A stretch of 64,000 bases of DNA from NCBI RefSeq assembly GCF_002243515.1, contig NZ_CP022657.1:278001-342000 (forward strand), given 5' to 3'. This document shows positions 31,323-40,025 of this stretch, in pieces. The translations under genes and the position numbers were made by a program. This stretch comes from Tumebacillus algifaecis. GTDB lineage: Bacteria > Bacillota > Bacilli > Tumebacillales > Tumebacillaceae. Positions within the stretch are counted from its first letter, which is position 1; every line of letters starts with the position of its first letter. The notes beneath the pieces were generated by a model. That model saw nothing but the letters and a program-made list of their open reading frames with translations. It made no database searches and was not told the DNA's origin.

Positions 31323-31451
31323 TTAATGCTGCGGCGGGAGTGTCAGTTCGTTCATCTCTACACCGATTGCAAAATGTTGCGGCGGTAATGACGGCTCAGT
31401 GCTAAAAGCGATCAAGAGGAGCAAGGCAAGTACACATGTAATTTTTTTCAT
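31323..31451 (-). CDS. 42-aa pre-pro-peptide, candidate signal for the adjacent RRNPP regulator
   Basis: The frame runs from ATG 31451 with GGAGGG 7 nt upstream to TAA at 31323. The peptide begins MKKITCVLALLLLIAFSTEP, a basic start and a hydrophobic core typical of Sec export. The remaining 22 residues contain S-LPPQH (21-26) and T-LPPQH (37-42), the second at the very C-terminus. Short exported peptides with a C-terminal 5-7-residue signal lie beside PlcR, NprR and Rap genes (PapR, NprX, Phr). Here the peptide gene is divergent from a PlcR-like regulator with about 200 bp between starts. The pairing is inference. Confidence 0.72.
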   Translation of the reverse strand: MKKITCVLALLLLIAFSTEPSLPPQHFAIGVEMNELTLPPQH

Positions 31452-31652
31452 GATCGATCCCTCCAATTGTTCGATTCGTTAGGTTGTAACTGTTCTTTCT
31501 ATTTACATTCTACTCGATCATTACCAAAATTTCACATCCAATTTATCGGCTTCAGTATCTAAATGGTGACTTTGGTTACTTTTTAATACGTAATACATTA
31601 TAGTATGATCAGATTATATTCATTTATGAATATTCGCATCGAGGTGGATGTC

Positions 31653-32534
31653 ATGGATTACTACCGGATCGGCATGGTGATTAAGGAATTACGCTTGCAA
31701 CGAAACATGACTCAAAAAGAGTTGTCGGATCGCATCTGCACGCAAGGACAGCTGAGCAAGATCGAAAAAGGGGAGGTCATCCCCAACTCGAGCACGCTCT
31801 ATGAGTTAGCTGGTCGGCTGGGCGTGGAGATCAGCTACATTTACGAGCAAGCCGCTTCTGAGCGCTGTGACTACGTCTTGGAAACATTTGCTGTCATTCG
31901 GCAAGCGATTCGAGACCGAGATTATGCAAAAGTGGCCGAGATCATCCGCAATGAAAAGAGCAACCCGCTGTTTGCCGCCCCGTCCCCCCGTCAGTTTCTG
32001 ATCTGGCACGAAGGCATTGTCACGTATTACATTGACAAAGACAGAGAAGGATCGCTCAAGTTGTTGCAGGAAGCGGTCGAGATTACCCAGCAAAGTCATG
32101 TCTACACCGAACGTCACATCGAAATCCTCAACAGCATCGGCATCATCCATCTCGAAGAAGAACAAAATGAAAAAGCGGTCGAATGTTTTCTGCAATGCTT
32201 GGATTTGCTCTTGAAAACACCGCATGATATTGACATCACGATCAAGATTCGCCTCCTTTATAACTTGTCCAAAGCCTGTCACCTGCTGAAGCAGTATGAC
32301 AAGGCGATTCTGCATGCCCGTCAAGGCATTCGTGTGTGCAAACAGTGTGAGACGATGTACCTGCTCGGCGAATTGTATTTTCAATGCGCCTCCTCCATGA
32401 TGGCGGACCGACGAGAAACGCAGGCGATCCAGCAGTTGCTCGAGCAGTCGTTCGCCCTGTTCACCATGCAGGAGAAGAGCGCTTTTGCCGACGTGGTGCA
32501 GAAGCAATTGGACAATCTGCGGCAGACAATTTGA
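31653..32534 (+). CDS. RRNPP-type transcriptional regulator (HTH plus TPR, PlcR/NprR-like)
   Basis: The 293-residue protein has an N-terminal XRE HTH (MVIKELRLQRNMTQKELSDR and GQLSKIEKGEVIPNSSTLYE, residues about 8-50), followed to the end by helical TPR-like repeats such as HIEILNSIGIIHLEEEQNEK and IRLLYNLSKACHLLKQYDKA. This is the layout and size (about 285) of PlcR, which binds re-imported peptides. GAGGTGG lies 6 nt before ATG 31653; the frame from 31605 lacks an RBS. A 42-aa exported peptide is encoded divergently. TATAGT at 31599-31604 is a possible -10; GTGACTTTGGTTAC at 31567-31580 may be an operator. Confidence 0.85.
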   Translation: MDYYRIGMVIKELRLQRNMTQKELSDRICTQGQLSKIEKGEVIPNSSTLYELAGRLGVEISYIYEQAASERCDYVLETFAVIRQAIRDRDYAKVAEIIRNEKSNPLFAAPSPRQFLIWHEGIVTYYIDKDREGSLKLLQEAVEITQQSHVYTERHIEILNSIGIIHLEEEQNEKAVECFLQCLDLLLKTPHDIDITIKIRLLYNLSKACHLLKQYDKAILHARQGIRVCKQCETMYLLGELYFQCASSMMADRRETQAIQQLLEQSFALFTMQEKSAFADVVQKQLDNLRQTI

Positions 32535-32606: not shown

Positions 32607-34127
32607 TTACTTGTTGTCGTCCGGATTGGTGACTTCGCCGACGGCGCGGTTGCCGTTCATCGGGAGGAGCCAGCTTTCCTGCTCTCCGTTCGGACCTTTT
32701 ACTTTGATCTCGATCTGAAGCAGGTCGATCTCGGTTCCATCAAACCATGTGATCCTCTTCTCGGAGCGGGTGATCGCGCCGAACTCCACCAGTTCATAGC
32801 CGGCTTTCAGTTTTTGCAACCAGTCGTCAAACGGTGCAAACGGCTCTTTGTAATTACTCATAAAACTTCTGTTTTTGCCTGGTTCGATATAGATGTAGGC
32901 TTGTGCATAGCTCCACTTGTCGTCTTTCAAATTCTTGATGATGGCAGTGGCCGTCTCTTTCATGCGCTCCTCTTGCTTCTTGATCTGCTCCTCCAATTCC
33001 TTTTTCATCAGATCGACCTGTTGTTCCTCCACCTGTGCCGTCGCGCTGATGACGGTCGGTGATTTATTGGGCAAGAAGACGAGGATCAGCACACAGGCGG
33101 CCACGGCAGCTGTACCAAACGCCATGACCGGCTTGTTTTGCATCAGCGGCTTGGTGCGGTACAGGTAAGGGCGAGCCAGTCGCTTCTGCAGCTGTTTGGA
33201 GAAGAAGGACAGGATCAGAATCGACAGGGTCAAGAACAGACCGGCTGAGAACAGCAGCCACGGATATTCGCGCAAGGCGCGTGAACCGTAGGAGATCATC
33301 CCGCCCCATTCTCCGGTCATCGTCAGCGTCATGAACTGCTGGGGAGGGCCGTCATCGTAAACGAAGCGCTCCCCGCCGCCGAGGAAGATGTTGAGGACGG
33401 CGAGCTGACCGATCAGGAACAGCACTTGGATGAAATCGGTCAAAATGGCGAACCACATATCGGGACGCAAATGTGGCATCAGGTGGCGGAACACGATGCG
33501 GGATGTGGAGGCACCCATCGTCTTCGCCGCGCCGATATACTCTTTTGCCGCAAAGAAGCGGGCTCGCTCGGCCATCTGGTGTGCGATCTGAAAGATGCCG
33601 ATCAGCACGAGCAAGCTGAAGAGCAGGAAGGCGAACATCAGAATCTTGGGATCGTTCGGGTTCATCCCTTGGTTCATCCCGAGCAGTATCGACATACCGT
33701 ATAGGGTCGGGAAGACGAACAGCAAGGTCGGGACGCCGGAGGTGATCAGTTGCAGCGTTTGGATGATCTTGCCGCCGCGTCCGGTGGACCCGGCGTACAA
33801 TCCAAGCGGCAAGGCGATCACAAAGCGCACCACGGTGACGAGGAACGCGAAGCCGAGCGTGTATTTCGCACCATTTAACAACAGCGACAACACATCATAG
33901 CCGCGGTGGTCGGTGCCGAGCGGATGTTCGAAGCTCGGGCCGAACGGTGGCGAAATCGGCGTTTTTACGCCATTGATCGTTTCATAGGTAACGCCGATCT
34001 TATGGTCTTGCGTGATCTCATAAGGCATCAGATAAGAGCCGAACACAGCGACAAACACGAGGAGCAACAGTAGTACCCAGGCCAGTTGATAGAGCAGGCG
34101 GTCTTTTTTCGCACCGTTTTGGTTCAT
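32607..34127 (-). CDS. Opp/Dpp-type ABC transporter permease with a C-terminal extracytoplasmic extension
   Basis: The first 330 or so residues are a DppC/OppC-like permease: HPLGTDHRGYDVLSLLLNGA near residue 65, then EYIGAAKTMGASTSRIVFRH, the EAA loop that contacts the ATPase. After a further membrane segment (VMAFGTAAVAACVLILVFLP, about 345-365) comes an unusual tail of about 140 residues: a charged coiled coil (DLMKKELEEQIKKQEERMKE) and a beta-rich domain ending in WLLPMNGNRAVGEVTNPD. Normal DppC is about 300 residues. AAGGAGGG precedes the ATG, and the stop of the upstream permease lies one base before it. No ATPase or binding-protein gene is next to it. Confidence 0.8.
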   Translation of the reverse strand: MNQNGAKKDRLLYQLAWVLLLLLVFVAVFGSYLMPYEITQDHKIGVTYETINGVKTPISPPFGPSFEHPLGTDHRGYDVLSLLLNGAKYTLGFAFLVTVVRFVIALPLGLYAGSTGRGGKIIQTLQLITSGVPTLLFVFPTLYGMSILLGMNQGMNPNDPKILMFAFLLFSLLVLIGIFQIAHQMAERARFFAAKEYIGAAKTMGASTSRIVFRHLMPHLRPDMWFAILTDFIQVLFLIGQLAVLNIFLGGGERFVYDDGPPQQFMTLTMTGEWGGMISYGSRALREYPWLLFSAGLFLTLSILILSFFSKQLQKRLARPYLYRTKPLMQNKPVMAFGTAAVAACVLILVFLPNKSPTVISATAQVEEQQVDLMKKELEEQIKKQEERMKETATAIIKNLKDDKWSYAQAYIYIEPGKNRSFMSNYKEPFAPFDDWLQKLKAGYELVEFGAITRSEKRITWFDGTEIDLLQIEIKVKGPNGEQESWLLPMNGNRAVGEVTNPDDNK

Positions 34128-34128
34128 G

Positions 34129-35199
34129 CTACGCGCCCTCCTTCGTGCTTACGACCACGCGGCTGCGCAGCAAGGCGAACAACCCTTGTACGAACAGCGC
34201 GAAAGCTGCGAGGATTGCGCAGGTCGTCGCCAGAGACGAGACGTAACCGATGCTTTGGTTGACCGCATAGCCACCAAGACCGAAGATGTTGGCCATGACT
34301 TCCACGACGACAAGCGAAGTCAGCGCCACCGAGACGGCCCGCGGGATGATCGTCAGGAAATCTTCCATCGTGTTGCGCATCATGTGCCGAAAGATGACCG
34401 CGGGACGCGAGAGCCCTTTCGAATAAGCCGTTTTGATGTAGCCTTCTTCCCACTCGCGTTCAAAGGCGATGCGCATGGTTCCATAGATCAAGGCGGCTGG
34501 CAAGAGGGAGATCGCCAACATCGGGATCAACAGCGGTGTTTGTTTGACAAATTGCATGATGATGATCACGGGCGACCCGACCAATTTATTGACCGAAATC
34601 GCGGCAAACTGCAGGAGCACGACGACGAAAAAGTCGGGAAGAGACAAGAGTAGTCCTTGTCCCGCGTCGAGCACCTTGCCCACTTTCGGCTTCCAAACGG
34701 CGAGCAATGCGGCCAAAAAGCCGACGGCCACGCCGATCAGCAGCCCTGGCAACAGGTAGGACAGCGAGCGTTTGATCATCTCGGCGAGCGAATTGGTGAT
34801 CGGGATCGGCTTTTGTCGCGACTTGTATGCGATCACACCGAAATCTCCATCCAGATAGGACTTGATCTGTACGTTCAGCGCTTCCCCATAGCGAGAGAAA
34901 TTGAAGGAGGGAGTCGTGACCACAGGCAGTGTGAGCTGCACCTCTTTGTGGCGGCCGATCTGTCGCTCCAGTTCTTCTTTTTTGGCAGCAGGCACGGAGA
35001 TATATCCGGCGCCTTCATCGACGATTGCGGTGCCCGGGAAGGCATTGATTACATTGTGAATGTTTCCGCCTGGAAGCAGGACGATCTGAATCTGGTCTTT
35101 CGAGATCACATCGATCCCTTTGTCCAGATTGCTGATCAACAGGATTCCGGCTAAGATGCCGACTGCGACCAGCAGTCCCTGTAAGAACCTTACCATCAT
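34129..35199 (-). CDS. Opp/Dpp-type ABC transporter permease (DppB-like) with an extracytoplasmic insert
   Basis: The 356-residue protein has a first membrane helix (FLQGLLVAVGILAGILLIS), about 100 extracytoplasmic residues (VLLPGGNIHNVINAFPGTAI, GDFGVIAYKSRQKPIPITNS), and five more helices. The EAA-like loop is GYIKTAYSKGLSRPAVIFRH, typical of DppB. Start is uncertain: ATG 35199 has a modest GGGGAT upstream; GTG 35226 adds nine residues. It is immediately followed by the second permease, so the two probably form a heterodimer. Substrate is unknown, with peptides or nickel as the family's usual cargo. Confidence 0.75.
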   Translation of the reverse strand: MMVRFLQGLLVAVGILAGILLISNLDKGIDVISKDQIQIVLLPGGNIHNVINAFPGTAIVDEGAGYISVPAAKKEELERQIGRHKEVQLTLPVVTTPSFNFSRYGEALNVQIKSYLDGDFGVIAYKSRQKPIPITNSLAEMIKRSLSYLLPGLLIGVAVGFLAALLAVWKPKVGKVLDAGQGLLLSLPDFFVVVLLQFAAISVNKLVGSPVIIIMQFVKQTPLLIPMLAISLLPAALIYGTMRIAFEREWEEGYIKTAYSKGLSRPAVIFRHMMRNTMEDFLTIIPRAVSVALTSLVVVEVMANIFGLGGYAVNQSIGYVSSLATTCAILAAFALFVQGLFALLRSRVVVSTKEGA

Positions 35200-35257
35200 C
35201 AATCCCCATTTCTCTGTGTATGACACCCCGAAGTAGTCTTGCCTATATAGACTAAAT

Positions 35258-35288
35258 ATTACACCGAAACGTTGCGTAATGTCGCAAC
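35258..35288 (-). promoter_or_regulatory. Promoter with overlapping inverted repeat upstream of the permeases
   Basis: On the minus strand TTGCGA (35287-35282) and TGTAAT (35263-35258) are 18 bp apart. GTTGCG-N6-CGCAAC at 35271-35288 is a perfect inverted repeat over the -35, a likely repressor site. Confidence 0.5.
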
Positions 35289-35349
35289 TTTCTAAAAAAG
35301 AATGTAAATTAAAGGTGATTCAATAGGTAGGTCCAACAGATAAGCATAC

Positions 35350-35376
35350 AAAAACCGTCCTAGAGGCCAGGACGGC
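35350..35376 (-). terminator. Terminator of the peptide/HEMMH operon
   Basis: CCGTCCT (35355-35361) pairs with AGGACGG (35369-35375). On the minus strand it is followed by TTTTTG, just after the HEMMH gene stop. Confidence 0.8.
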
Positions 35377-35383
35377 ATTGGCG

Positions 35384-36856
35384 TTATTTAGGTTCCAGCA
35401 GGTAGCTTCCCGGCACGACGATCATTTTGGACAGCTTTTCGCGGCACTCCGGATTGGTCACGTGTGACACGCTGGTCAGGATGTCCATTTTCGTTTGATG
35501 CAGGGCTTCGTCATGTGTAGACGAATCGGGGTGAGTGTAGCGATCGACCGCGTATTTCGCAAAGTCGAACAGTTCCCCTTGCACGACCTGTTCACCGTCG
35601 GAGCCGTAATTTTTCGACAGGTATCCGCGCATCTCGGCGAGGCGGTAGAGCAATTCTTTCCACGCCAGTCCCTCTTTACTCTGCTTGCGGACCTGCGGGT
35701 CAGGCTCGGGCAGGGTTGTGCAGGACAGCATGTCCGACCAGTTGTGCCAAGCGTCCGGCGCGAGGCACTCGGTCAGCTTTTGCGCACAGTACGCATTGCG
35801 TGGGAGCAGCTCGATCACTTCGCGGAAGCCAGGGATGCGGTTGCGATCGATCGCTTTTTTCGCCCAGCGGACGTGGCGGTGCTGGTTATCTAGGTAGGCT
35901 TTAAACGAAGGGTGGATCATGTCGAACTCATAATCGCTGAGGTGATGTGTCGCCAGAATCTGCTCTTTGATCGCATTGTCCGGCGGGAAGAATTCACCTT
36001 CGCCTAGCAACATGACGCGTTTGCGGTACATAAAGAGCGACTTGTCTGTGACGCCTTCGTGCTGCCCCTGCATGACTTCATAACGAAAAGTCCCATACTC
36101 TGGGAACGTCGTCACCGCCGAAAAGCCGTCATCGATCAGGTTGAGGTCATCGCGTATCGCCATCAATTCGCGCATGATCACCTCTTCCATCACCGACACC
36201 GAGCCTTCGATGTGCGTAAAATAGGTGATGTCCTCTTCCGGGGTGCCAAGCACGCGCGTATAGAGGTCGTGGAAGTTCAGAATGTGCATCATCTCGTGAA
36301 TGTAGTTTTGGAACGGATAGCGGATCACCGTACCTTGATCACCGCCGACAAAAGCGGCGCGGCGTTGATAGATGCGCCCGTGCTCCGGACGAAACGCGTC
36401 CTGTGCGTTTTCATCAGGATCGACGTACAGTTCATAGCCTTCGTTGTAGCTGTGAATCCAGACGGCCATATAGGTCGGCGACAACAAGAGCGCCGTGGAA
36501 TGATTCAGAATTCGCGCAGGCATATTGAACATGTGATCGTTGATCTCTGGGCGCGCGGACAGATAGGACATGCCGACGGCAAGAGCTTGATACAGTTCAA
36601 ATTCGCCTTCTGTCGCCATCTCGACACAAAAACGGTGCAGCGCTTGTAGCCACGTGGTCATCCGATCATCGGACACGTCATAGGTAGTGGTAAAGCGCTC
36701 CAGCGCTTGTTCGAAGTCTTCCGGCTCCACGGTCAAAAAGACGTTCAGCCCATCAACCCACAAATCGGAGCCGATCTCAGTATCAAACCAGCCTGCTTGA
36801 TCGTCGCTCATGGTGCGCAATGTATGATATTGAACCAAAAGGTCTGAGGTATTCAT
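35384..36856 (-). CDS. 490-residue HEMMH protein of unknown family, last gene of a small-peptide operon
   Basis: The protein is soluble by eye, with no signal peptide. The only known motif is HEMMH at residues 187-191 in NYIHEMMHILNFHDLYTR, a zinc- or iron-binding HExxH. A second acidic stretch EGSVSVMEEVIMRELM (about 218-233) could supply a third ligand, as in gluzincins. Four Cys lie in the C-terminal part. Two readings fit: a metallopeptidase that processes the peptides encoded upstream, or a HExxH peptide-modifying enzyme of the kind annotated as 2-oxoglutarate-dependent peptide beta-hydroxylase. AAAGGATGAG precedes the ATG. It is separated from the repeat peptide gene by a hairpin that could reduce its expression. 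Confidence 0.7.
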   Translation of the reverse strand: MNTSDLLVQYHTLRTMSDDQAGWFDTEIGSDLWVDGLNVFLTVEPEDFEQALERFTTTYDVSDDRMTTWLQALHRFCVEMATEGEFELYQALAVGMSYLSARPEINDHMFNMPARILNHSTALLLSPTYMAVWIHSYNEGYELYVDPDENAQDAFRPEHGRIYQRRAAFVGGDQGTVIRYPFQNYIHEMMHILNFHDLYTRVLGTPEEDITYFTHIEGSVSVMEEVIMRELMAIRDDLNLIDDGFSAVTTFPEYGTFRYEVMQGQHEGVTDKSLFMYRKRVMLLGEGEFFPPDNAIKEQILATHHLSDYEFDMIHPSFKAYLDNQHRHVRWAKKAIDRNRIPGFREVIELLPRNAYCAQKLTECLAPDAWHNWSDMLSCTTLPEPDPQVRKQSKEGLAWKELLYRLAEMRGYLSKNYGSDGEQVVQGELFDFAKYAVDRYTHPDSSTHDEALHQTKMDILTSVSHVTNPECREKLSKMIVVPGSYLLEPK

Positions 36857-36896
36857 GAGTTCTCATCCTTTACGGGATAGATTTCGCAAATAAAAT

Positions 36897-36925
36897 GTGC
36901 CCTTTCCCGGTCCGAGAAAGGGCAC
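36897..36925 (-). terminator. Intercistronic hairpin between repeat-peptide gene and HEMMH gene
   Basis: GTGCCCTTTC pairs perfectly with GAAAGGGCAC around a 9-nt loop. On the minus strand ATTTTATTT follows. It lies between two co-oriented genes, so it probably attenuates rather than stops transcription. Confidence 0.65.
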
Positions 36926-36934
36926 GAGACGAGC

Positions 36935-37246
36935 TTAGATTTCAGCGACGATGCCGATCGGGCGCAGTTCTTTCGTAGCAGAAAACTCAGCCGGGATGCC
37001 AATCGGGTTGATTTCTTTCGCAAATTCGATCGGGTTGATGATGCCGATCGGACGCAGTTCTTTCGCAGCAGTAAACTCAGCCGGGATGCCGATCGGGTTG
37101 ATTTCTTTCACAAATTCGATCGGAACGATGCCGATCGGACGTGCTTCTTTCACATCGATAATTTCGCCGATGATACCGATCGGGCGGATGACTTTTGCTT
37201 TCGGAACGAGGTGCGATTGGACAGCTACTTTTGTTACTTTTTTCAT
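36935..37246 (-). CDS. 103-aa peptide with six [RN]PIGI repeats (peptide D)
   Basis: The first 14 residues, MKKVTKVAVQSHLV, match the N-terminus of peptide A (MKKVVKTAVNSILV) at 10 positions. After PKAKVI come six units beginning RPIGI or NPIGI, spaced 14-15 residues: RPIGIIGEIIDVKEA, RPIGIVPIEFVKEI, NPIGIPAEFTAAKEL, RPIGIINPIEFAKEI, NPIGIPAEFSATKEL and RPIGIVAEI. There is no Cys, no signal peptide and no membrane segment. The design is that of a multi-core precursor. AAGGAGGA lies 7 nt before ATG 37246. It could instead be a repetitive structural protein. Confidence 0.78.
   Translation of the reverse strand: MKKVTKVAVQSHLVPKAKVIRPIGIIGEIIDVKEARPIGIVPIEFVKEINPIGIPAEFTAAKELRPIGIINPIEFAKEINPIGIPAEFSATKELRPIGIVAEI
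36940..37190 (-). repeat. Tandem coding repeats of about 45 bp inside peptide D
   Basis: The segment CCGATCGG with flanking bases recurs about every 42-45 bp, and two 90-bp blocks (NPIGI...KEL plus RPIGI) are nearly identical. This implies recent unit duplication. Confidence 0.75.
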
Positions 37247-37259
37247 GGTCAGTTCCTCC

Positions 37260-37352
37260 TTAGAATTCAATCAAGATGGTGATGTGGACTGTTTCTTTTG
37301 CGTCAGCGATGATCGGAGCTTTGACAGTCGCTTTTTTCACAACTTTTTTCAT
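37260..37352 (-). CDS. 30-aa peptide C of the small-peptide operon
   Basis: The peptide starts MKKVVKKATVKAPIIADAKE and ends VHITILIEF. It shares the MKKVVK start with peptides A and B, though the rest is different and more hydrophobic at the C-terminus. GAGGAA lies 8 nt before ATG 37352. The stop codon overlaps the RBS region of peptide D, so translation may be coupled. It is too short for default gene finders. Confidence 0.6.
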   Translation of the reverse strand: MKKVVKKATVKAPIIADAKETVHITILIEF

Positions 37353-37386
37353 CGGTCATTTCCTCGTTTCTACATAAAAGTAGCAA

Positions 37387-37476
37387 TTACTTAACGTTGG
37401 ACCAGCCGATCCATTTTACTTGCTTTACTTGCTCAACCAAAGCAGAGTTAAAGCCGCTTTTTACGACCTTTTTCAT
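37387..37476 (-). CDS. 29-aa peptide B of the small-peptide operon
   Basis: The peptide starts MKKVVKSGFNSALVEQ and continues VKQVKWIGWSNVK. It is a paralogue of peptide A: both share MKKVVK, NS-x-LVEQVKQVKWIG, and length, and differ mainly at positions 7-9 and in the last five residues. GAGGAGGTG precedes ATG 37476. The conserved middle with a variable C-terminus is the pattern of leader and core in RiPP precursors. Confidence 0.68.
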   Translation of the reverse strand: MKKVVKSGFNSALVEQVKQVKWIGWSNVK

Positions 37477-37519
37477 GTAGGACACCTCCTCTTCAAAATG
37501 ATTATTCATGACAAGTCGA

Positions 37520-37609
37520 TTACTGCTCGCTGACTCGGCCGATCCATTTTACTTGTTTTACTTGCTCAACCAAAATTGAGTTCACAGCAGTTTTTACTAC
37601 TTTTTTCAT
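37520..37609 (-). CDS. 29-aa peptide A, first gene of the small-peptide operon
   Basis: The peptide starts MKKVVKTAVNSILVEQ and continues VKQVKWIGRVSEQ. A strong GGGAGGTG lies 10 nt before ATG 37609, about 33 bp after the promoter -10. It is the first of four peptide genes in the same orientation. No Cys is present, which argues against lanthipeptides or sactipeptides; Trp, Lys and Ile are the notable residues near the C-terminus. Confidence 0.68.
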   Translation of the reverse strand: MKKVVKTAVNSILVEQVKQVKWIGRVSEQ

Positions 37610-37641
37610 TAGAAAAACACCTCCCTTTCATTTATACTTTA

Positions 37642-37670
37642 ATGATAAGTGGAGGCTCTTTGCAGGTCAA
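37642..37670 (-). promoter_or_regulatory. Sigma-A promoter of the small-peptide operon
   Basis: On the minus strand TTGACC (37670-37665) and TATCAT (37647-37642) are 17 bp apart. It is the only good promoter before the peptide A to HEMMH run. Confidence 0.7.
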
Positions 37671-37896
37671 TACCTTTCTGGTTAATAATTTAGAAAATTT
37701 GAGAAATTAAAGCTGAGTGAGCGAGTGAAAGTTTGGTGCAGGTGGTAGTTATCGACTGCTCTGCATCCTATCCTTTATAGAATCGCGTCGGGTCAGGGAA
37801 GCGGTTTCACAGGTTCGAACGGATGCCTGAAATTCACTATCGAATTTTTTGCGAAAATCGTGTATAAGTATAGGTGAGGTATTTTCGACATGTAAA
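37671..37896. other. Intergenic region between the peptide operon and the fad operon
   Basis: No gene is seen. The part to about 37740 is AT-rich and may hold regulatory sites of the divergent peptide promoter. TATAAG and TATAGG near 37863-37874 could be -10 elements of fadF, but no -35 lies at the right distance. Confidence 0.4.
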
Positions 37897-37910
37897 ACCG
37901 ACCGCTCGGT
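37897..37910 (+). promoter_or_regulatory. TetR-family pseudopalindrome upstream of fadF
   Basis: ACCGACCGCTCGGT resembles the site recorded for PfmR, a TetR-type fatty-acid degradation repressor of Thermus (TACCGACCGNTNGGTN, from memory). It lies 7 bp before a FadR-type box. Confidence 0.55.
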
Positions 37911-37917
37911 CTAAATT

Positions 37918-37935
37918 TGAATGATGATTCATTCA
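37918..37935 (+). promoter_or_regulatory. FadR-type operator
   Basis: TGAATGATGATTCATTCA is a 7+4+7 palindrome that fits the B. subtilis FadR (YsiA) box TGAATGA-N4-TCATTCA. FadR releases DNA on binding long-chain acyl-CoA. The site lies 56 bp before the fadF start, so it probably controls the whole beta-oxidation operon. Confidence 0.85.
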
Positions 37936-37991
37936 TGTAAAAACATTCATCTAGTATTGCAAATTCTGATTCGCAAAGGGGTTGAACAGAA

Positions 37992-40025
37992 ATGGCGTGG
38001 ATTAAAGTGCTCTTGTTCCTGATGCTCGCTGGGGTCGCAGGTTACTATAGCATTACGGCGTTATATCGCCGCTACCAGTACCTGATGCTCGGCGCAGAAG
38101 AAAATCGTTTCGATGACAGCGATGCGCGTATTAAAGGTTTCTTCAAGTACGTGTTGGGTCAAGGTAAGGTACTGGCTGAACCTGCCGGGATTGGCCACTT
38201 TATCATTTTCTATGGTTTTATCATCATCTCGATCGGCGCGATGGACTTCTTCGCCCATCATCTGACCGGGTCGCACATTCCGGGCCTTGGCTCGACTGTG
38301 TTTGTCGCCATGCATGAGGCGGCGAACATCTTGGTGCTGGTCGCGATTGCGATCGCCGCTGTTCGCCGATATATCTTGAAACCGATGCGCCTTGACGTGA
38401 CCGCTGAAGCCGGTTACATCATCGGCGCGATCGCGCTGCTCATCCTGTCCGACTTTGTCTACTGGGGTGCTGCTGATGCGCTGGAAGGTCACGATCCAGG
38501 CTTTATCGCTCCGATCGCAGGCTTCCTCGCAGGCGCGTTCGCTAGTATGTCCGATACGGCGGTCACGGCGATCAAAGAAGTGATGTTCTGGTTCCACACC
38601 GCCGTGCTGCTCGGTTTCGCAGTCTACATCCCGCGTTCGAAGCATTTGCACATGATCGGCGCGATGTTCAACGTCTATTTCCGCAAAACCGATTCTCGTC
38701 CGGCTGGCAAGCTGAAAAAGCTCGACCTCGAAGACGAGTCGATCGAAGAGTTCGGCGTGGGCCGCATCGACCAGTTCTCGTGGCGTCAATTGCTCGACGG
38801 CTATGCTTGCACCGAATGTGGCCGTTGCCATGTCAACTGCCCAGCTACGCTTTCCGGTACGCCGTTATCTCCGAAATACCTGATTTTGAAAATGAAAGAC
38901 CACCTGATCGACGTGGGCGACACGTTGCTCGAACAGAAGGTGCAAGGCGCTGCCGGCACCGGGGTCGAAGTGGCCGCTTCGGCAGAACTGCCGATGCTGA
39001 TCGGGGAAGAGCCGGGACAAGGCATCTACTCGGAAGACGAAATCTGGGCTTGCACCACTTGCCGTGCTTGTGAAGAAGCATGCCCGGTCTTTAACGAGCA
39101 TGTTGACAAAATTATCGACATGCGCCGTTACCTCGTCCTCACCGAAGGGAAAGCAGAACCGGAAGTCAATCGCGCATTCCAAAACTTGGAGCGCCAATCG
39201 AACGAATGGGGTCAAAACCGCTCCACCCGCGGTGATTGGGCGAAAGGTCTCGACATCCCGACGATGGCAGAAGTGGAAGGTGACGTGGAGTATCTGTTCT
39301 ATGTCGGTTCCTCCGCATCGTTCGATGTGCGCAACCAAAAGATCGCTCAAGCGTTCACGCGTTTGATGAAGGAAGCGGGCGTCTCCTTTGCCATTCTGGG
39401 TGCGGAAGAGGAGTCGGACGGCGACTCAGCCCGTCGCCTCGGCAACGAGTTTTTGTACCAGTCGCTGGCAGAAGCAAACATTGAGATTTTCCGCGAGTAC
39501 GGGGTGAAGAAAATTGTCACCACCTGCCCGCATGCATACAACACGTTCTTAAATGAATATCCTGACTTTGGTTTCGAAGCGGAAGAAGTGCTGCATCACA
39601 CCGAAATGCTGGCGAAGTTGATCGATGCTGGGAAACTGTCGCCGCTGCACGATGTCGATCACTTGCTGACTTTCCATGACTCTTGCTACTTGGGCCGTTA
39701 CAATGGCATCTACACCGCGCCGCGCTACATCATCACGAAAATCCCAGGCGTGCGTCTGGTCGAGATGGAGCGCAACAAAACGAAGAGCATGTGCTGTGGC
39801 GCAGGTGGCGGCGGTCTGTTCAAAGAGGACACCGGCACGGAGCGCATCAACGTGATGCGTACCGAGCAGGCGATGGAAACGGGCGCAACGGCGATCGGCA
39901 CCGCTTGTCCGTACTGCATGACGATGATCACCGATGGCACGAAGGCGAAAAACGTGGAAGAAAATCTTCCGGTCTATGACGTCGTAGAGTTGCTTGAGAT
40001 GTCCGTCTTCGGCGCGAAACACTAG
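37992..40025 (+). CDS. fadF: FadF/EtfD-type membrane iron-sulfur electron-transfer protein
   Basis: The 677-residue protein has about six N-terminal membrane helices (to about residue 225) like the NarI/HdrE haem-b type, then two [4Fe-4S] ferredoxin motifs: CTECGRCHVNCP near 272 and CTTCRACEEACP near 353. C-terminal HdrD-like CCG elements follow (FHDSCYLGRYN, CCGAGGGG near 600). B. subtilis FadF (YwjF) lies with acyl-CoA dehydrogenase genes; the mycobacterial counterpart EtfD moves electrons from ETF to menaquinone. That role fits here as first gene of a beta-oxidation operon behind a FadR box. AAAGGGG precedes the ATG. Confidence 0.88.
   Translation: MAWIKVLLFLMLAGVAGYYSITALYRRYQYLMLGAEENRFDDSDARIKGFFKYVLGQGKVLAEPAGIGHFIIFYGFIIISIGAMDFFAHHLTGSHIPGLGSTVFVAMHEAANILVLVAIAIAAVRRYILKPMRLDVTAEAGYIIGAIALLILSDFVYWGAADALEGHDPGFIAPIAGFLAGAFASMSDTAVTAIKEVMFWFHTAVLLGFAVYIPRSKHLHMIGAMFNVYFRKTDSRPAGKLKKLDLEDESIEEFGVGRIDQFSWRQLLDGYACTECGRCHVNCPATLSGTPLSPKYLILKMKDHLIDVGDTLLEQKVQGAAGTGVEVAASAELPMLIGEEPGQGIYSEDEIWACTTCRACEEACPVFNEHVDKIIDMRRYLVLTEGKAEPEVNRAFQNLERQSNEWGQNRSTRGDWAKGLDIPTMAEVEGDVEYLFYVGSSASFDVRNQKIAQAFTRLMKEAGVSFAILGAEEESDGDSARRLGNEFLYQSLAEANIEIFREYGVKKIVTTCPHAYNTFLNEYPDFGFEAEEVLHHTEMLAKLIDAGKLSPLHDVDHLLTFHDSCYLGRYNGIYTAPRYIITKIPGVRLVEMERNKTKSMCCGAGGGGLFKEDTGTERINVMRTEQAMETGATAIGTACPYCMTMITDGTKAKNVEENLPVYDVVELLEMSVFGAKH

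Follow-up and report, generated by a model that had tools for sequence, protein, structure and literature searches.

What is the role of an operon in which four short peptide genes precede the gene for a protein with the metal-site motif HEMMH? The operon lies on the minus strand of a stretch of 64,000 nucleotides from Tumebacillus algifaecis (contig NZ_CP022657.1, positions 278,001 to 342,000), referred to below as the window. It probably constitutes a minimal system resembling those for ribosomally synthesised and post-translationally modified peptides (RiPPs), with the HExxH metalloenzyme acting on the peptide cores. The point that carries this reading is that peptides and enzyme recur together in two bacterial families, which makes it probable that the enzyme modifies or trims the peptides. 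Some soil bacteria carry, in other words, a compact set of short-peptide genes adjoining an undescribed family of metal-site enzymes. Very short genes encode three of the four peptides, and none of the libraries searched has a name for the enzyme, so mining by known RiPP enzymes would probably miss the system.

Linkage of peptides and enzyme

From the promoter onwards, the operon comprises the following parts.

37670-37642, minus: sigma-A-like promoter, TTGACC-17-TATCAT, 10 of 12 consensus matches; a like stretch stands at the same place in loci L011 and L012
37609-37520, minus: peptide A gene, 29 amino acids, MKKVVKTAVNSILVEQVKQVKWIGRVSEQ; orthologues in L011 and L012; genome-wide profile E 3.4e-11
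37476-37387, minus: peptide B gene, 29 amino acids, MKKVVKSGFNSALVEQVKQVKWIGWSNVK, a paralogue of peptide A; profile E 3.2e-11
37352-37260, minus: peptide C gene, 30 amino acids, MKKVVKKATVKAPIIADAKETVHITILIEF; orthologues in L011 and L012; profile E 1.5e-8
37246-36935, minus: peptide D gene, 103 amino acids, leader and six PIGI units; homologues of 70-72 amino acids in L011 and L012; short-peptide profile E just 0.42
36925-36897, minus: terminator-like hairpin between peptide D and the enzyme gene, 13 pairs, 8 of them GC
36856-35384, minus: HExxH protein gene, 490 amino acids, from the open reading frame (ORF) and family alignment
36298-36284, minus: HEMMH motif, residues 187-191; all 22 aligned proteins share H187, E188 and H191
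36208-36206, minus: E217, possible third ligand of the metal, present in all 22 proteins
35376-35354, minus: terminator-like hairpin closing the operon, from hairpin inspection

This layout agrees with the original prediction, which had described a promoter, four short genes (29, 29, 30 and 103 codons), the HEMMH gene and a terminator. Each of the four short genes had also been credited with a strong ribosome-binding site (RBS); by inspection this holds for peptides A, B and D, and the sites of peptide C and of the enzyme gene are weaker. A scan of positions 35000-38200 against Rfam at gathering thresholds gave no match. The window genome holds one copy of the enzyme at a threshold of E 0.001.

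Relatives of the enzyme are found in 17 of 398 genomes sampled from the class, at 23 loci and in two bacterial families only: eight of the loci belong to the window's family (f1; five genomes) and 15 to a second family (f26; twelve genomes), which we presume, as a guess, to be Brevibacillaceae. The corresponding fractions are five of 61 genomes, the window's own counted, and 12 of 39 genomes of f26. Among 398 genomes sampled across the phylum, the enzyme occurs in its own genome alone. All these searches were of genome samples; the one search to reach beyond the phylum, a single-sequence contig scan, returned T. avium (NZ_CP021434) as its sole genome. An origin in mobile elements was considered and rejected: plasmid records (72,556), phage records (50,697) and a scan of IMG/VR yielded no relative of the enzyme. 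In a tree of 22 proteins, the f26 copies split into two groups, one with the twelve that have peptides (support 99/98) and one with the three solitary copies (100/100); grouping among the f1 copies is weak, and L016 has a long branch.

Peptide genes accompany the enzyme at 19 of the 23 loci, in 18 cases within 900 bases upstream and at L013 109 bases downstream. Enzyme homologues consistently devoid of nearby peptides, the outcome named beforehand as the one that would speak against the prediction, are therefore not what is seen. The loci without an intact peptide gene are L050, L051 and L052, discussed below, and L017 (genome G003), where the enzyme itself is broken and the surroundings showed no peptide gene.

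The linkage was also examined with a profile of 32 positions, built from 18 peptides of the tested genomes and their relatives and run over 24 whole genomes. It gives 23 places at E < 1e-4, all at enzyme loci. Matches occur in all ten genomes with an intact enzyme and in none of the other 14, which include one with a broken copy and where the best E values are 0.08 and 0.094. The list omits some peptides that can be read directly at the loci, and the match to peptide A extends past its stop codon. Separate models for each family, searched against six-frame translations of the loci, agree with this picture. The f1-only model (12 peptides, D types excluded) places all 24 f26 peptides on top, with E from 7e-8 to 7.2e-4 and the next frame at 0.31. 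Of 15 f1 peptides, the f26-only model (14 peptides) recovers 13, their E values running from 1.5e-6 to 0.58; it misses the L014 peptide (E 3.5, the first non-peptide frame following at 3.7) and peptide C of the window (4.6, within the noise). Neither model finds anything below E 1.5 in 32 control loci. The co-occurrence of peptides and enzyme that had been proposed as a check is thus borne out by the profiles in ten of ten against none of 14 genomes, and across families.

Leaders, cores and the intergenic hairpin

The family comprises 39 predicted peptides, 38 at upstream sites and one more at L013, with one to four per locus. Each starts MK(K/Q)(V/M/E)(V/I/T)K and consists of a constant leader of about 19 residues (MKKVVKxxVxxxxxVxxxK), followed at the C-terminus by a variable core some 10-17 residues long. 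The combination on which the original prediction rested, of conserved N-termini, variable C-termini and a linked metal-site protein, thus recurs in both families. All twelve peptide-bearing f26 loci encode two peptides, one ending WRVVVD(V/L)CL; the other contains HPI or PLPI, ends in -C-x-x and has a GTG start at three loci.

The ten peptides of the window operon, L011 and L012 have no Cys, and in eight of them Glu is next to last. Outside these three operons, all 29 peptides bear a Cys second or third from the C-terminal end. The reported absence of Cys is therefore correct for the window operon and its two orthologues and fails for the family, where 29 of 39 peptides contain it. For the family as a whole, the exclusion of thioether classes on that ground does not carry over, and thiol chemistry may play a part.

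Peptide D is probably a multi-core precursor. Its six PIGI units are spaced by 14-15 residues (at least two units arise in 8 of 20,000 shuffles) and follow the pattern K-E-x-[RN]-P-I-G-I-...-E-[FI], with KE in the linkers. Multi-unit precursors of this kind were seen in the window operon, L011 and L012 only; the counterparts in T. avium and G001 have fewer and more diverged units. The end of peptide C resembles one unit of D (KETVHITILIEF versus KEARPIGIVPIEF), which points to D as an expanded multi-core form.

Codon changes differ from peptide to peptide. For peptide 1 in nine f26 genomes, 13 sites vary, 10 of them third positions, and of the 11 codons that vary, 8 do so only synonymously; in the g54 form, all three variable sites are third positions. 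Peptide 1 is under purifying selection at the codon level. For peptides A and B of f1, third positions account for 15 of 31.

A hairpin separates the last peptide gene from the enzyme gene in all 18 loci with upstream peptides. In 15 of these it beats all 100 shuffles; five shuffles equal it at L016, two at L044 and one at L049. Its T run is almost lacking in L015 and short in L046-L048, and the nine g27 hairpins share one sequence and are not independent cases. In the window, the hairpin at 36925-36897, absent from the original prediction, is a probable attenuator.

Enzyme chemistry and alternative readings

The 22 aligned proteins, from which the broken copy L017 is left out, have the motif form HE[MIL]xH, and H187, E188, H191, E217, E230 and FRPE (155-158) are invariant throughout. 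E217 is perhaps the third metal ligand beside H187 and H191; downstream of the motif, no His is invariant until H328, 137 residues on. In L017 (L017:6287-7672, minus) the reading frame is open, HSMAQ replaces HExxH and about 30 residues before the motif are lost.

Library searches place neither enzyme nor peptides. Pfam and NCBIfam were searched with the enzyme and all four peptides, PHROGs with the enzyme and peptides A and D, and PADLOC with the enzyme and D. The window enzyme matches no model in Pfam, NCBIfam or PADLOC at E 1. For the 22 members at E 5, the best values (0.018 in Pfam, 0.029 in NCBIfam, few members each) were judged to be chance, as were the best PHROGs value (E 0.0063, an unnamed family of 59 positions) and the best match of peptide D (RACo_C_ter, E 0.13). 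A sequence-profile search of the PDB with the enzyme gave at best an unrelated protein (E 0.37). Among the listings and abstract openings returned by an open-access literature search, no description of peptides or enzyme was found. Within these libraries and that literature, the earlier statement that no described family has such sequences stands.

The AlphaFold2 model of the enzyme is mostly helical (predicted local distance difference test score 88.7, predicted template-modelling score 0.90). Among the Foldseek matches listed, the one with a zincin name is a phage protein (E 5.6). Matches from VIA-align were set aside; they are mostly helical, lie inside the C-terminal part and have Z <= 7.5. 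A model of the catalytic region alone (57.8 on the former score) was discarded.

In the proposed mechanism, the strong promoter and internal hairpin would yield much peptide and little enzyme. The HExxH protein would hold a metal by H187, H191 and perhaps E217, recognise the constant leader and act on the core, with peptide D supplying about six cores on one leader. Leader removal and release could fall to general peptidases or to the enzyme itself, and export would need general machinery; no exporter or protease common to the loci was found, which would leave both leader removal and export to such machinery. Gene layout, linkage, co-occurrence, the conserved motif and the hairpins are observed; translation of the short frames, metal binding, recognition of the leader, the reaction and the role of the product belong to the inferred part.

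The reaction itself is split almost evenly between oxidation and plain zinc proteolysis, with a distinctly smaller chance for anything else. HExxH enzymes do act on RiPP precursors elsewhere, as alpha-ketoglutarate (alpha-KG) oxygenases; they hydroxylate His, Asp, Phe, Gln or Pro or cleave the backbone by oxidation (PMC12636437; PMC13060819). A profile comparison (hhalign) of the enzyme with seven alpha-KG-HExxH proteins gives E 0.0037 over 35 columns on the motif, at a probability of 8.9%. The cut-out HExxH region gives E 0.00022 against the same set, and the alpha-KG-HExxH profile score of 31.0 is reached by none of 60 shuffles that kept the motif (maximum 26.8). Against an oxygenase link weigh the low number of aligned columns (about 35), the lack of any match of a member to the curated model, and further results: among 56 single HExxH frames, an unrelated L013 frame scores 27.8 versus 28.7 for the best alpha-KG member, and a forced global alignment of the enzyme with the set yields no match. 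A genome search with the alpha-KG-HExxH model TIGR04267 found a different gene in the window genome and not the enzyme loci. Far from the window, the genome encodes a TIGR04267 protein of 424 amino acids that scores above the curated cut-off (L056, G000:C1:3472407-3472901).

The alternative of a zinc peptidase, cutting the peptides and multi-unit D into short unmodified signal or effector peptides, is a serious one that falls somewhat short of an even chance. HExxH with a Glu some 25-26 residues on is the gluzincin pattern (M32/M3 spacing), and the enzyme has an invariant Glu 26 residues after the last His of the motif; the KE-containing linkers between the six units of D would suit cutting, and the motif of two single M3 proteins falls on that of the enzyme profile when aligned (HExxH on HExxH; 41-43 columns, scores 23.8 and 22.0). 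No Pfam or NCBIfam peptidase model matches, though, and the enzyme gene was absent from the results of genome searches with PF02074 and PF01432. Profile against profile, M32 gives E 0.38 and M3 0.44, both off the motif, versus 0.0037 on the motif for the alpha-KG set; for scale, M32 and M3, here taken to be true relatives, give 0.00064 against each other. The kinship with M32/M3 suggested by the ligand spacing is unsupported in this comparison (16 sequences each, motif unaligned). Were the reaction oxidative, the young group of HExxH oxygenases would gain a carboxylate-bearing metal site; were it proteolytic, the enzyme would be a peptidase dedicated to maturation that recognises the leader.

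It is quite improbable that the peptides are not substrates at all, as small structural or regulatory peptides or as leader ORFs governing the enzyme gene. On that reading, the hairpin found before the enzyme gene at all 18 loci with upstream peptides might be a translation-coupled attenuator; peptides numbering one to four at a locus, each built of a constant leader and a variable core, are ill-suited to an attenuator ORF, the L013 peptide sits after the enzyme, and conservation extends to the C-terminal Cys or Glu.

A further alternative involves the neighbouring genes. Two permease genes (35226-34129 and 34127-32607, minus strand) lie 157 bases downstream of the operon on the same strand, so the statement that no transporter is adjacent does not hold. 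The pair (32607-35226, minus) is OppB/OppC-like and longer than usual, with no ATPase or binding protein seen directly beside it. Further on, positions 31605-32534 (plus) encode a helix-turn-helix regulator, of which the PADLOC models RmrA and capH match the N-terminal part only. Divergent from it lies a small signal-peptide-like ORF (31323-31466, minus; MKKITCVLALLLLIAFS...) with LPPQH twice; the two look to us like a pheromone and receptor pair of the Phr/NprX type.

The peptides, cut or not, might then be pheromones read by this regulator and perhaps imported through the permease pair, which is unlikely. In each of the three same-genus genomes examined, no more than 3 kb separates the permease pair from the operon, and a 44% identical regulator stands directly upstream of the peptides in G006:C7 (L015), the other 25 regulator matches in the window genome being just 17-38% identical. 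Yet the regulator is near only two of the 23 loci (stretches of 9-18 kb each), its relatives in G003 and G006 lie on other contigs, and it adjoins the pheromone-like ORF of its own; for the other 20 loci, tblastn of the stretches finds nothing that matches the permeases. No neighbour conserved across both families was seen (nine loci by eye; tblastn with four neighbours). Permease pair and regulator are treated here as outside the system.

Several observations weigh against a RiPP-like system. TIGR04267 matches none of the 22 members (NCBIfam, E 5), and its conserved downstream His is absent (H220 of the reference row, 42 after the motif); H220 is presumably a metal ligand there, and E217 aligns with it solely in a forced long alignment of low confidence. 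Foldseek with the full model gives no clear match, with nothing at E <= 0.001 among the best 50 of 87 PDB and 50 of 57 BFVD rows. No transporter, protease or second tailoring enzyme common to the loci was seen in the same survey of neighbours. The third-position bias of the second f26 peptide is weak (8 of 18 in five genomes), as is the signal in its pairwise differences, 43 amino-acid-changing versus 26 synonymous. Finally, L050-L052, second, solitary copies in three f26 genomes, have an intact HExxH and no intact adjacent peptide gene; there the enzyme may work in trans or on another target. About 200 bases upstream of these enzyme genes, an RBS stretch is followed by AC(T/C)CACAAAAAA, where the intact locus L038 has ACTCATGAAAAAAG. 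Read by eye, the stretch looks like an eroded MKKVVK peptide gene, with small gaps that differ among the three genomes; with the f1-only model, the L052 remnant ranks just after the 24 real peptides (the E of 0.31 given above).

A fuller version of the RiPP-like reading is put forward tentatively and is rather doubtful as a whole. It would be a RiPP class whose sole maturase is a new HExxH-Glu family with a zincin-like fold in which two His and one Glu would hold iron. Guided by the 19-residue leader, the enzyme would oxidise the core at or near the conserved near-terminal Cys or Glu, and the class would include multi-core precursors in Tumebacillus.

Relation to known systems

What marks a RiPP system at the gene level is found here: an encoded precursor, a conserved leader with a variable core, and an adjoining enzyme gene. 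Like multi-core RiPP precursors, peptide D has a single leader followed by repeated similar units; unlike them, it has no cyclising enzyme noticed nearby. Its unit K-E-x-[RN]-P-I-G-I-...-E-[FI] is not known to match that of any other multi-core RiPP precursor.

With the gluzincins M32 and M3 the enzyme shares HExxH with a downstream Glu, a mostly helical model and, for M32, a similar length; it differs in its motif (HE[GAC]GH in 16 M32 proteins versus HE[MIL]xH here) and in having no hidden Markov model (HMM) match. As to a shared fold, neither Foldseek nor VIA-align gave a clear match. The alpha-KG-HExxH set (TIGR04267 / IPR026337; PflC, PosC, PesO, BpmH, ChlBH) likewise has HExxH proteins beside short precursor peptides; the profile match to it is weak and lies around HExxH, with the preceding strand and LF-x-D after it. 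The set also occurs in bacilli, PesO in Peribacillus (PMC13060819). In contrast to that set, the window enzyme has 490 amino acids and lacks an HMM match; next to it, no MNIO, radical SAM or nitroreductase partner was noticed.

The gene order resembles that of microcin C, where a very short precursor gene and a terminator hairpin, drawn between mccA and mccB, precede the enzyme gene (PMC6495379). The enzyme class is another, and MccA has 7 residues, as against one to four leader-bearing precursors here. A precursor with an HExxH tailoring or processing enzyme is an already known kind of system, while the libraries and papers searched gave no description of this enzyme family or this precursor family; there is a fair chance that this compact peptide-enzyme unit, with its natural core variation and multi-core form, founds a class of its own.

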